This document shows, piece by piece, positions 2,917-42,961 of a DNA stretch of 64,000 bases (the stretch's first letter is position 1; each line of letters begins with the position of its first letter). Location: positions 62,001 to 126,000 of the forward strand of contig NZ_BBRN01000003.1 in NCBI RefSeq assembly GCF_002090175.1, in the 5' to 3' direction. Under the pieces are notes generated by a model that searched no databases, was not told the origin of the DNA, and worked only from the letters and a program-made list of their open reading frames with translations. This DNA is from Demequina sp. NBRC 110057. GTDB taxonomy: Bacteria > Actinomycetota > Actinomycetes > Actinomycetales > Demequinaceae. A program made the translations under genes and the position numbers.

Positions 2917-2976
2917 TCGGCGGGCGAGCGCATCGCTCCGTGCGGTCGATTGCGTCTCACCACTGCCCCTTAGCCA

Positions 2977-3034
2977 CGTCAAATGGATCCATTTGGCTTG
3001 CCTAAGGCCGCTAACGAGGGGAAATCAACCGCGG
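2977..3034 (+). repeat. Dispersed palindromic-tip repeat, copy A
   Basis: A 58-base copy of a dispersed repeat beginning CGTCAAATGGATCCATTTGG and ending near CAACCGCGG. It aligns along its full length, with roughly a dozen mismatches, to the minus strand of 3183-3240 (copy B). Its first 33 or so bases are nearly identical to the element inside murC at 42141-42202. The copy lies between the terminator-like hairpin of the small ORF and the pheS promoter. It contains an open frame starting MDPFGLPKA. Confidence 0.85.
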
Positions 3035-3171: not shown

Positions 3172-3182
3172 ACGCTCCCCGC

Positions 3183-3240
3183 GGTGGATTCCCCCTCATC
3201 AAGGCCCTTAGACGCACCAAAGGGATCCATGTGACGGAAG
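3183..3240 (-). repeat. Dispersed palindromic-tip repeat, copy B
   Basis: Minus-strand copy of the repeat starting CGTCACATGGATCCCTTTGG, inverted relative to copy A. Together A and B bracket about 265 bases holding the 32-codon ORF, its -10 and its hairpin. Its open frame starts MDPFGASKGLDEGESTAG, comparable with MDPFGSPKALDE encoded by the copy inside murC. Confidence 0.85.
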
Positions 3241-38365: not shown

Positions 38366-39079
38366 TCATGGGTGGACGATGACTCCAGCGTGGCGCCCGG
38401 TGACGCCGTCGCGGCGGTACGAGTACAGGCGCGCGTCCTCGCGGGTGCACACGGGAATGCGGACAATCTCGCGGGCCCCGAGCTCTCCCAGGCGCGCCTC
38501 CGCGGCGCGCGGGAGGTCGAGTGCGGGGGTTCCCCAGGACGTGACGGCGCGCGCGGCGGGGTGGCGGCGTGCGACCTCCTCGCGAAGGTCCTCGGGCACC
38601 TCGTAGCAGCGCCCACAGATGGCGGGGCCGATGGCCGCGCGAATCGCGTGCGGGCCGGCCTCGGCCGCGCGCGCGTCCAGCAGGGCGGCCCAGGCGGCGT
38701 CGATGGCGCCAGCAAAGAGGCCGGGCCTACCCACGTGGACAGCGGCGACCGCGTCGGTGGACGCGTCGTGCAGGAGGATGGGCAGGCAGTCGGCGGCGAT
38801 GGTCCCGAGGGCGACGCCGGGCGTGGTGGTGACCAGCACATCGGCCGGCGGGGCCGACGCCAGCGGCGCGCTGATGTGCGCGACGCGGATGCCGTGCTCT
38901 GCGGTGAGGAACGTGACGTCCGCCCCCGCGGCGCGCGAGACCCGGCGGCGGTTGTCGTCAACCGCCGCCGGGTCGTCGCCCACGTGAACCGCGACGTTCA
39001 GGGAGCCGTACGGATCCTGTGAGGCTCCCCCGTCGCGGGTGGTGAAGAAGGCGCGGACCGGCAGACCCGCGTCGATCAT
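38366..39079 (-). CDS. pgeF: PgeF/YfiH-type polyphenol oxidase-like protein
   Basis: A 237-residue protein of the YfiH/LACC1 family. Members act as purine nucleoside phosphorylases/adenosine deaminases and, in E. coli, remove mis-incorporated L-Ser from peptidoglycan precursors. The Zn-binding His-Cys-His set is visible: TAEHGIRVA, AADCLPILL and AAVHVGRPGLFAG. The GPAICGRCYEVP segment is conserved. The ATG at 39079 follows the ftsZ stop by 4 bases, so it is co-transcribed with ftsZ. Confidence 0.9.
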   Translation of the reverse strand: MIDAGLPVRAFFTTRDGGASQDPYGSLNVAVHVGDDPAAVDDNRRRVSRAAGADVTFLTAEHGIRVAHISAPLASAPPADVLVTTTPGVALGTIAADCLPILLHDASTDAVAAVHVGRPGLFAGAIDAAWAALLDARAAEAGPHAIRAAIGPAICGRCYEVPEDLREEVARRHPAARAVTSWGTPALDLPRAAEARLGELGAREIVRIPVCTREDARLYSYRRDGVTGRHAGVIVHP

Positions 39080-39083
39080 CCGA

Positions 39084-40271
39084 TCAGCGCAGGAAGTCGG
39101 GGACGTCGAGCACGTCGGCCTCGGCGCGCGTGGAACGCACGTCGATCGCGTCGGTGTCGGGCTCCGGCTCGTCGGCGTCGATCGCCTGCGGCACGGCCTG
39201 CGTCGCGGGCGCGGCCGTCGAGGTCTCGACGGGAGCACTCACCGGCGCGGCCGAGGCGGCGGCGGGAGCGGGGGTCGCGTTCTCGAAGCCGCCGATGGCG
39301 CCCTCGTGGCGGCGCGTCGTGGGCGCTCCCCCGTCGAAGCCAGCGGCGATCACGGTGATGCGCAGCTCGTCGCCGAGCGAGTCGTCGATGACGGTACCGA
39401 AGATGATGTTCGCCTCGGGGTGGGCGGCCTCGCGCACCAGGCGGGCGGCGTTCTCGACCTCCTTGATGCCGAGGTTCGAGCCACCGGCGATCGACAGCAG
39501 CACGCCGTGCGCGCCCTCGATCGACGCCTCGAGCAGCGGCGACGCGATGGCGCCCTCCGCGGCCTCGAGGGCCCGGGACTCGCCGCGCGAGTTCGCGACG
39601 CCCATGAGCGCGGTGCCCGCGCCCTTCATGACCGACTTCACGTCGTTGAAGTCGACGTTGATGAGGCCGGGGGTGGTGATGAGGTCGGTGATGCCCTGGA
39701 CGCCGCCCTGGAGGACCTGGTCAGCCGCGGCGAAGGCGCCCAGCACGGACAGGTTCGCGTCCGAGATGTCGAGCAGGCGGTCGTTCGGGATGACGATGAG
39801 GGTGTCGACCTCCTCGCGCAGCGTCTGGATGCCGGCGTCGGCCTGGTCCGCACGGCGGCGGCCCTCGAAGCCGAAGGGGCGGGTCACGACGCCGACGGTC
39901 AGCGCGTCGAGCTCGCGGGCGATGCGGGCCACGACGGGGGCGCCGCCGGTGCCGGTGCCGCCGCCCTCTCCCGCGGTCACGAAGACCATATCGGCGCCCT
40001 TGAGCGCCTCGGCGATCTCGTCGGCGTGGTCCTCGGCGGCCTGGCGGCCCACCTCGGGGTCGGCGCCGGCGCCGAGCCCACGCGTGAGCTCACGGCCGAT
40101 GTCCAGCTTGACGTCGGCATCGGACATCAGCAGCGCCTGGGCGTCGGTGTTGATGGCGATGAACTCCGCGCCCTTCAGGCCGACGTCGATCATGCGGTTG
40201 ACGGCGTTCACGCCGCCGCCGCCCACGCCGACGACCTTGATGGCGGTGATGTAGTTCTGCGGTGCGGCCAT
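39084..40271 (-). CDS. ftsZ: Cell division GTPase FtsZ
   Basis: The tubulin homologue that forms the division ring (395 residues). The nucleotide-binding loops are [15 protein letters not shown] and the tubulin signature [13 protein letters not shown]; the T7 synergy loop region [11 protein letters not shown] is present. A variable Pro/Ala-rich linker leads to the C-terminal conserved peptide [10 protein letters not shown], the binding site for SepF/FtsW. Expression is probably driven partly by the TTGACA promoter in the 135-base ftsQ-ftsZ gap. Confidence 0.98.
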
Positions 40272-40406: not shown

Positions 40407-41543
40407 TCACTGCGTGACGGTTGGGAAGGTCGGCGCGGAGACGTCGATGAGCGTCGCATTCTTCGCCTCCTTGGAGCCCAGCAGGGTCTCCAGCACCTGA
40501 GCCTTGAGGTGCGAATCCTCGCCACTTCCCCACTCCACCTGGGGGCCGTCGCGCAGGGTGAAGTGGATCGTGTCCTCGGTTTGCGCCTCGATGCCCTCGA
40601 CGGACTCGCGCAGCTCGGCGGGGATCTCCTCGACCACGGCGAGAACGCCGGTCAGGATGCGCTCGTGCTCCTCGCCCACCGGCACAGTGATGACGGGAAG
40701 GTCGCCGGGAGCCTCCTCCGACTCGCTCACCTGCTCGCCCTCCTCGTTCACCAGCCGATAGCCGCCGTCCTCGGCTGGCACCGCGGCGACGGGCTCCGAC
40801 GGCGTCAGGGTGACCCTCAGGCCCTGCGGCCATACCTTCTCCACCTGTGCGGAGGCCACGCCGACGAGGTCGGTGAGCTGATTCTCCAGGTGCGACGTAT
40901 TGAGGGTCGCCAACGCCTCTCCGTCGTAGGCCGCCACGATCGCGTCGACGTCCGCGGGGTCCACCACGGTGCCGAAGCCATTTGCCTCCACCTCGCCAGC
41001 GTCGAACGCGACGATGGGCGACATCAGGGTGATCCAGACGGCGGCTGCCACCGCTCCAGCGATACTCAGGCGCTTCGACCAGCGGATCATGGCGAGCCTG
41101 CGGTCGGCGCTGCGGCGCTCGCGCAGCCGCTCCTGCATCCTGAGCGAGACGTTGTCGGGGCGCAGCCTCGCGCTCACCCGTGCCCAGGGCGTCGCGACGG
41201 TGCCGTCGGACAGATCCTTGCGGACGGCCGATGCGGCGGCGGGTACGGGCGCCTCGGTTGCCTTGCCCGTGAGGCGGCGCGACAAGTGGCGCAGGCGCCC
41301 GGCGCGCGGGGTGTCGCCGCTGGCGGCTCCCCTGCCCACTGTCGGGCTCGCCGACGTCGCGGGGCTCGCCGCGCTGGCGGGCGTCGACCCGCTCGCGGCG
41401 CTGCGCGTCTTCGTCGCGACCGTGGACGAGCGCGGCCGCTCGTCCCGCTCCGCCGGGGGCGGGACGGGCCGGCGCGGCACCGCGGGACGCGACGTCGAGC
41501 GGGGTGTGACGCTCGGCGGGCGGGGGCGGCGCGGGTCGCTCAC
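40407..41543 (-). CDS. ftsQ: Cell division protein FtsQ
   Basis: A bitopic divisome protein (378 residues) linking FtsL/FtsB-type and FtsI/FtsW proteins. A cytoplasmic N-terminus of about 150 residues, rich in Arg, Pro, Ser and Thr, precedes one TM helix (about 155-175) and the extracytoplasmic POTRA domain (FDAGEVEANGFGTVVDPADVDAIV) and beta domain. The GTG start at 41543 overlaps the murC stop by 4 bases. The long disordered N-terminus is poorly conserved. Confidence 0.93.
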   Translation of the reverse strand: MSDPRRPRPPSVTPRSTSRPAVPRRPVPPPAERDERPRSSTVATKTRSAASGSTPASAASPATSASPTVGRGAASGDTPRAGRLRHLSRRLTGKATEAPVPAAASAVRKDLSDGTVATPWARVSARLRPDNVSLRMQERLRERRSADRRLAMIRWSKRLSIAGAVAAAVWITLMSPIVAFDAGEVEANGFGTVVDPADVDAIVAAYDGEALATLNTSHLENQLTDLVGVASAQVEKVWPQGLRVTLTPSEPVAAVPAEDGGYRLVNEEGEQVSESEEAPGDLPVITVPVGEEHERILTGVLAVVEEIPAELRESVEGIEAQTEDTIHFTLRDGPQVEWGSGEDSHLKAQVLETLLGSKEAKNATLIDVSAPTFPTVTQ

Positions 41544-42961
41544 GCGCGCCGCCGCAGGGAGTCGAGAATCCAGTCGGCCGCGTACGTGACGGGGCCGGAG
41601 CCGACGGTGAGGACAAGGTCGCCGGGGCGAGCGAGGCGCGCTGCCTCCTGCGCCGCCTCGGCGAGGTCGTCGACCACGCGCGCGGTAGCGCCCTCCCGGC
41701 TCTCGACGGCGTCGAGGATGGACTGAGAGGTCACGCCGGGAATGGGGTCCTCGCGGTCGCCGTGGACACCGGCGATCACGATGTCGGCATCGGCCACCGA
41801 TAGGGCCTGGCCGAAGGCGGCCGCGTGCAACTGGGTGCGCGAGAACAGCGCCGGCTGGAACAGCACCACGAGACGCCCCGCGCCGGCGGAGCGGGCGGCG
41901 GCAAGCAGTGCCGCGACCTCCGTCGGGTGGTGCGCGTAGTCGTCGACCACCGTGACGCCGTCCGCCTCGCCGCGGGTCTGGTAGCGGCGGCCGGTGCCGG
42001 CGAAGCCCGCGACGGCGCCGGCGGCGCGCTCGGGGTCCGCCCCCACGGCCACGGCAGCGGCCCAGGCGGCGGCCGCGTTAAGCCGCATGTGCGCGCCGGG
42101 GACGGGCACGTCCAGGGCAAACTCCTGCCCCGCCCTGAGCGGTCGAATGGATCCATTTGGCTCGTCTAGGGCCTTAGGCGAGCCAAATGGATCCATCTGA
42201 CGGGAAAGGCGGAGGTGGGTGGGCGTCACCTCCACGTCCGCGCCCGAGCCCTCGGAGCCGTAGGTCACCACTCGCACCCCGGCCGCGGCGGCACGGGCGG
42301 CGATCGTCGTCACGACCGGGTCGTCGGCGCACGCGACAAGCACGCGGCAGTCGGAGGCGAACTGCGCGAACGCCTCGTGCAGCGCCTCGACGGTGCCGTG
42401 GTGGTCGAGGTGGTCGGGCTCGATGTTGAGCAGGATCGCCACCTCGGGGTGGTACCGCAGGAAGGAGCCGTCGGACTCGTCAGCCTCCACCGCGCTGATG
42501 CCGGCCGTTCCCGCGTAGCCTCCCGCTACGGCGCCCTCGACTCCGAAGACGCGCGCCCCGACGGCGAAGCCGGCGTCGATTCCCGCGCCGTGGAGCACCG
42601 TCGCGACCATGGCCGAGGTGGTGGTCTTGCCGTGCGTGCCCGCGACGGCGATGAGGCGCTGGTCGTCGAGGGTCCGCACGAGCGCCTCGGAGCGGTGAAT
42701 GACCTCGACGCCTGCCTCGCGCGCGTGGGCGAGCTCGGGGTTGGTCTCCCGCACCGCCGAGGAGATTACGACGGTGTCCACACCGTCGACGTAGGCGGCG
42801 TCGTGGCCGATGCGCACGTCCATGCCCGCCTCGCGCAGCGCCAGGAAGTAGTGCGACTCCTTCATGTCGGAGCCCGTGACCTCGTGGCCGCGGGCGGCCG
42901 TGAGTCGCGCGACCGCGGACATTCCGGAGCCGCCGACGCCGATGAAGTGGACCCGGCTCAC
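41540..42961 (-). CDS. murC: UDP-N-acetylmuramate--L-alanine ligase with repeat insertion
   Basis: Adds L-Ala to UDP-MurNAc, the first amino-acid step of the peptidoglycan stem (473 residues, cytoplasm). Motifs: N-terminal VHFIGVGGSGMSAVARL, ATP-binding GTHGKTTTSAMVATVL, central EADESDGSFL and NIEPDHLDHHGT, and C-terminal DDYAHHPTEV. Unusual: residues 256-272 (MDPFGSPKALDEPNGSI) are encoded entirely by a 50-bp palindromic repeat inserted in frame, between the strand ending LRLSRQ and the strand RPLRAGQEFALDVPVPG. The catalytic motifs are intact, so the enzyme is probably active. Confidence 0.96.
   Translation of the reverse strand: MSRVHFIGVGGSGMSAVARLTAARGHEVTGSDMKESHYFLALREAGMDVRIGHDAAYVDGVDTVVISSAVRETNPELAHAREAGVEVIHRSEALVRTLDDQRLIAVAGTHGKTTTSAMVATVLHGAGIDAGFAVGARVFGVEGAVAGGYAGTAGISAVEADESDGSFLRYHPEVAILLNIEPDHLDHHGTVEALHEAFAQFASDCRVLVACADDPVVTTIAARAAAAGVRVVTYGSEGSGADVEVTPTHLRLSRQMDPFGSPKALDEPNGSIRPLRAGQEFALDVPVPGAHMRLNAAAAWAAAVAVGADPERAAGAVAGFAGTGRRYQTRGEADGVTVVDDYAHHPTEVAALLAAARSAGAGRLVVLFQPALFSRTQLHAAAFGQALSVADADIVIAGVHGDREDPIPGVTSQSILDAVESREGATARVVDDLAEAAQEAARLARPGDLVLTVGSGPVTYAADWILDSLRRRA
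42147..42196 (-). repeat. In-frame palindromic repeat inside murC (copy C)
   Basis: Perfect 18-bp arms ATGGATCCATTTGGCTCG (42147-42164) and its reverse complement (42179-42196) around a 14-base, partly symmetric centre TCTAGGGCCTTAGG. Flanks CGTCAG and GGTCGA extend the similarity to copies A and B. It is 50 bp long with no frameshift or stop on the murC strand, and encodes 17 residues. The arms themselves contain the palindrome ATGGATCCAT. Confidence 0.9.

Follow-up and report, generated by a model that had tools for sequence, protein, structure and literature searches.

The murC gene of a Demequina genome carries, in frame, a 64-bp palindrome. In our judgement this segment is quite probably one copy of a REP-like palindrome family of the genus, which was inserted, tolerated and then rewritten in step with the other family members. 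The gene lies in a stretch of 64,000 nucleotides, hereafter called the window, from a genome of 2.73 Mb in seven contigs (G000), and the nearest named MurC is that of D. litorisediminis. For this coding palindrome of a high-GC actinobacterium we found both an unoccupied site and a site occupied in two clades, as well as another gene with a coding copy and clear concerted evolution. Such a series of orthologous sites lets the spread and homogenisation of small palindromes be tested without RAYT, and it lets one test the repeat-driven rewriting of part of an essential protein as well.

The gene itself (41540–42961, minus strand) encodes a UDP-N-acetylmuramate--L-alanine ligase of 473 residues, with a TIGR01082 score of 383.6 bits against a cut-off of 335.1 and matches to MurC structures in the PDB. 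Inside it, two perfect 18-bp arms, ATGGATCCATTTGGCTCG on the left (42147–42164) and CGAGCCAAATGGATCCAT on the right (42179–42196), both strand-neutral, enclose a loop of 14 (42147–42196); no perfect inverted repeat in the window whose loop is at most 20 is longer. The sequence-only reading had described this 50-bp core correctly: it lies in frame, without stop codon or frameshift, and corresponds exactly to residues 256–272. Its extent needed revision, since comparison with the family sets the unit at 64 bp (42140–42203, minus strand), not 50 or 62. The whole unit matches R1, a covariance model built from the full-length (type A) copies, over 64/64 positions and on both strands.

Structure and codon usage both mark the element off from its surroundings. 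It folds with −40.1 kcal/mol (z = −8.7), a value equalled by 0 of 200 shuffles, and no T-run follows the hairpin. The gene reads it in the frame that is free of stops, frame 1 of the element, giving RQMDPFGSPKALDEPNGSIRP. GC3 is 0.47 in the 17 insert codons versus 0.93 in the rest of murC, where no other 17-codon stretch has a value below 0.76.

As the sequence-only reading had anticipated, the genome holds many further copies. Searching for ATGGATCCATTTGG with up to two mismatches gave 7 matches in the window against 0.05 expected, and with up to one mismatch 55 genome-wide, where the reversed control gave none. Copies in G000 include at least 17 full 64-bp units detected by R1 and about 20 half-copies. 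Type A is the 64-bp palindrome with two GGATCC cores spaced 40 bp, while the half-type, type B, is a single arm fused to GAGGGGAAATCnACCGC or to a variant form. Type B copies mostly form inward-facing inverted pairs 100–1500 bp apart, with 8 pairs in G000 and about 12 in a second genome, G015. The related copies that had been reported in non-coding DNA upstream of pheS are real, though of the half-type: one at 2968–3007 (plus strand), followed by GAGGGGAAATCAACCGC at 3016–3032, faces another at 3181–3236 (minus strand; 3199–3235 in a narrower delimitation), and the two make an inward-facing inverted pair.

The family is concentrated in one genus. R1 matched 12 of 44 Demequina genomes, eight of them with many copies, and found nothing in the other 32; outside Demequina, weak matches came from only two genomes in a search of 396 genomes of the order. 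A lone R1 match in another family (L404) proved to be a differently sequenced hairpin and was left out of the counts. All families share a fixed architecture of 64 bp and two arms, each with a TGGnnCCA core, the cores lying 40 bp apart. Despite this shared architecture the sequence is specific to the genome. The arm dialect is TGGATCCA in G000, D. litorisediminis (G060) and Demequina sp. NBRC 110056 (G033), TGGGCCCA in a MAG (G029) and G031, and TGGCTCCA paired with TGGAGCCA in G008, G036 and G065. G015 has many copies in a diverged dialect, TGGCACCA paired with TGGTGCCA, and G029 also carries tandem palindrome arrays with a 40-bp pitch.

At one and the same murC site the insert is present in G000, G060, G015, G033, G029 and G031, and it is absent from most Demequina MurCs and from other actinobacterial MurCs. 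MurC of the nearest relative, G023, is 90% identical over residues 1–245 and has no insert. Residues 256–272 are therefore an extra segment, as had been suspected, and not a stretch common to distant actinobacteria. All carriers checked read the element in an identical frame. At this site G031 has two adjacent hairpins and the other five carriers have one long hairpin; 4 of 21 insert residues differ between the nearest pair of carriers. In trees of MurC with the insert removed, and likewise of the adjacent MurG, the carriers fall into two clades, each with sisters that lack the insert. A single carrier clade can be rejected (AU p = 0.0004), which requires no fewer than two changes. The pattern could also result from one gain with three exact losses, which counts against the main reading.

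An AlphaFold model of MurC indicates how the protein may accommodate the insert. The model has the fold of known MurC structures and a mean pLDDT of 91.5, which falls below 50 at residues 260–271; these form a loop between strands 249–252 and 280–282, in a stretch that varies in length among other MurCs. The sequence-only reading had asked whether the insert is a surface loop; it is predicted to be a disordered loop, and the inserted protein segment probably has no function of its own.

The murC copies resemble the family of their own genome more than they resemble each other. They are 74–86% identical to that family (77–86%, and 74% for the G031 copy in its corrected register) versus a mean of 50–65% to other murC copies; the close pair G000/G060, at 88%, is the expected exception. 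Intergenic copies behave likewise: copies within one genome are 78% identical on average, whereas copies at orthologous places in distant species, identified from both flanking genes, average 65%, near the value for arbitrary cross-genome pairs. Because murC and orthologous intergenic copies alike resemble their own genome's family, the family evolves in concert. As judged from these alignments, the place of a copy is inherited and its sequence is the genome's, which amounts to species-specific rewriting at fixed places. The palindrome had been called mobile; the evidence speaks for concerted rewriting at fixed places rather than for recent mobility.

A second gene has received the element. 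In G015, a GT4 glycosyltransferase contains an in-frame copy in the linker between its two glycosyltransferase domains, in the same element frame as in murC; the inserts are NLAPFSSSRALDDENGAKF in the glycosyltransferase and NLAPFSSSRRLHDENGAKF in MurC. None of nine aligned glycosyltransferase orthologues has the insert. The G029 orthologue has a tandem array just downstream, with an exact 40-bp pitch (L385/L240, G029:C23:4981-5124). Among about 180 copies examined, murC and this one glycosyltransferase are the only coding cases. Two other candidates, L232 in G031 and L241 in G029, were rejected, the element lying upstream of the likely real gene start.

Combining these observations, we propose that the family consists of interspersed repeats, REP-like and non-coding by origin. 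An element would have entered murC in an ancestor, through one gain and a transfer between the clades or through two gains at a permissive loop, lengthening by some 20 residues a loop that connects two strands in the central domain of the Mur ligase. We infer that the disorder and variability of the loop allowed the insert to be tolerated there. The murC copy would still be rewritten with the family, either by ectopic gene conversion or by an enzyme copying one palindrome onto another. Against this proposal, neither a transposase nor any other machinery turned up, PF01797 being the one candidate family searched, and the element shows no target-site duplication: across 178 copies, flanking direct repeats of 2–9 bp did not exceed shuffles. 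A more specific version, which we entertain tentatively and would not bet on, is that a sequence-specific system, neither RAYT nor MITE-like, rewrites all palindromes to the species dialect at fixed chromosomal places, the murC copy included. If true, a selfish repeat would dictate a portion of the sequence of an essential enzyme.

Most copies follow closely after a stop codon, and this placement raises the possibility that the palindromes are selected bidirectional terminators or mRNA 3'-end hairpins, with the murC copy an accidental duplicate. The median distance from stop codon to element is 23 nt. Genomes were examined as stretches around loci, and the placement counts rest on gene boundaries that, outside the window, come from a simple gene finder whose codon-usage model was trained on the window. 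In these counts the neighbours converge at 87 of 169 intergenic copies versus 9 of 80 other intergenic spaces of those loci (p = 3e-10), and are unidirectional at 67 of the 169. The stem is very stable, and the same intergenic place may hold type A in one species and an open type B pair in another. Arms of a single copy also covary beyond shuffles in G029, G008 and G031, and more weakly in G036 and G033. In G000 and G060 this covariation is no more than chance, so maintenance of the hairpin within a genome is unsupported for the window's own family.

Other properties fit terminators poorly. No intrinsic, U-tract terminator was called around the window's intergenic copies. Carrier genomes have only tens of copies, and 32 of the 44 Demequina genomes have no match. 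Ordinary terminators do not have a species-specific sequence common to many loci. Selection for termination accounts for the place of the copies, not for their homogenisation. We take the terminator explanation seriously without expecting it to hold, and a terminator role is compatible with insertion and rewriting as a secondary effect.

Other features of the copies were also surveyed. Over about 13 nt, their flanks are pyrimidine-rich on the 5' side and purine-rich on the 3' side. Rfam 15 gave no match above gathering score; the microRNA-family matches fell below their gathering scores, were generic long-hairpin matches and were set aside. We rejected type B pairs as carriers of an autonomous nuclease (DUF559) or of cargo genes because the neighbours of the DUF559 gene are unchanged between G000 and G015, because G008 and G065 too have the SDR gene next to the element, and because the remaining pairs surround different genes or just some 100 bp. 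At the DUF559 locus, a DUF559/MTES_1575 nuclease-like gene with the same neighbours in both species (L013, G000:C6:195538-196720; L330, G015:C1:794553-795669) is flanked in each by inward-facing type B palindromes and has opposite orientations in the two. The segment was probably inverted between its inverted repeats.

The two carrier clades, separated by non-carriers, could instead mean that a murC hot spot received an independent insertion in each carrier species, with no need for conversion. The distance from conserved codons to the element varies among species, and different REPs lie at about the same recB site in Xanthomonas (PMC3733652). Set against this, the frame is the same in all carriers checked, the position relative to an ACC CAC CTC-like flank is similar within a few codons, many intergenic sites are shared in the same way, and four species of one clade would each need an event of their own. 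We consider separate insertions unlikely.

It is less plausible still that the murC hairpin is a selected mRNA structure that serves attenuation or polarity within the dcw cluster, or that the loop has a role. That one site and one frame persist in six species, with a long hairpin in five, despite large sequence change, would fit such selection. However, G023 and most of the genus do without the insert, its sequence tracks the genome-wide family and not a murC-specific constraint, and the peptide is predicted to be disordered and varies even between the nearest carriers. An assembly artefact or chance palindrome, for which nothing speaks beyond the general risk with palindromes, is refuted because genomes that were assembled independently, including named isolates and a MAG, have the element at this murC site; the reversed-pattern control gave no matches.

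The window contains two further repeats of a different kind. The nonamer GGCCGATGC occurs at 49 sites in its 64 kb against 2.8 expected (for example at 808–816 and 42805–42813). Its density is 0.34–0.77 per kb in each of the 11 sampled Demequina genomes, the R1-negative G034 and G014 among them, whereas loci of Cellulomonas and Amycolatopsis have almost none of it. It has the look of an uptake-sequence or HIP1-like word shared across the genus. At 38939–38974, near the end of the gene at 39084–40271, lies the window's second-longest perfect inverted repeat, with 16-bp arms and a 4-base loop, which is possibly a terminator.

Coding palindromes first became known as a peculiarity of Rickettsia, with scattered REP and MITE cases elsewhere. 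The Rickettsia palindromic elements (RPEs) reportedly go back to Ogata and Claverie. RPEs and REPs inside genes have already been described (PMC2229807, PMC3733652), and RPEs are classed as CGTC-type REPs (PMC3733652). The same paper lists its CGTC repeats for five phyla and GTAG repeats for others, none of them Actinobacteria, and mentions untagged REP-like sequences of M. tuberculosis (PMC3733652). A literature search for Demequina palindromes returned nothing relevant.

Like RPEs, the Demequina elements are palindromic and mostly intergenic, have some in-frame translated copies in genes of known function, and come with no known dedicated transposase. RPEs are 105–146 bp long (PMC2229807), whereas type A measures 64 bp, and about 19 genes are hit in Rickettsia versus two here. 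In-frame insertion in several unrelated genes, typical of RPEs, is thus seen weakly, in murC and the GT4 glycosyltransferase. Unlike in Rickettsia, the host is a high-GC actinobacterium and dialects differ between species at orthologous sites. The tag of RPEs and CGTC-type REPs (CGTC, TGTC, CCTC; PMC3733652) is not conserved: CGTC appears only in G000, G060 and G065, and elements of the other Demequina families end in CGCC, GCGC, GAGC or CCAG. The RPE-like behaviour proposed by the sequence-only reading therefore holds for a coding palindrome with a second in-frame gene, but coding copies are rare and the defining features of RPEs and REPs are lacking.

REP, BIME and REPIN sequences are likewise dispersed palindromes downstream of genes, form opposite-orientation dimers and also occur within coding regions (PMC3733652), and the Demequina family shares their general placement downstream of genes in convergent or unidirectional spaces. 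It differs in its 64-bp unit and 40-bp core spacing, and no Demequina genome consensus ends in a GTAG tag. The RAYT transposase family PF01797 was found in 0 of 44 Demequina genomes and in 5 of 14 control genomes, an absence that rules out RAYT as the mobiliser of these palindromes. Bacterial MITEs (ERIC, NEMIS/Correia, RUP, YPAL) are also short, hairpin-forming and non-coding; the Demequina element is shorter and has no target-site duplication, and the loci read held no candidate for a related insertion sequence. Mitochondria of Nematomorpha similarly tolerate perfect inverted repeats inside translated essential genes (PMC6649704), but there both arms encode conserved protein regions, whereas the Demequina palindrome is an added loop from a dispersed family. 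Since it does not pass the tests of length, tag, transposase and target duplication, the family appears to belong to neither the RPEs nor the REPs and, as far as its sequences tell, to be a variant that works like a coding REP or RPE.
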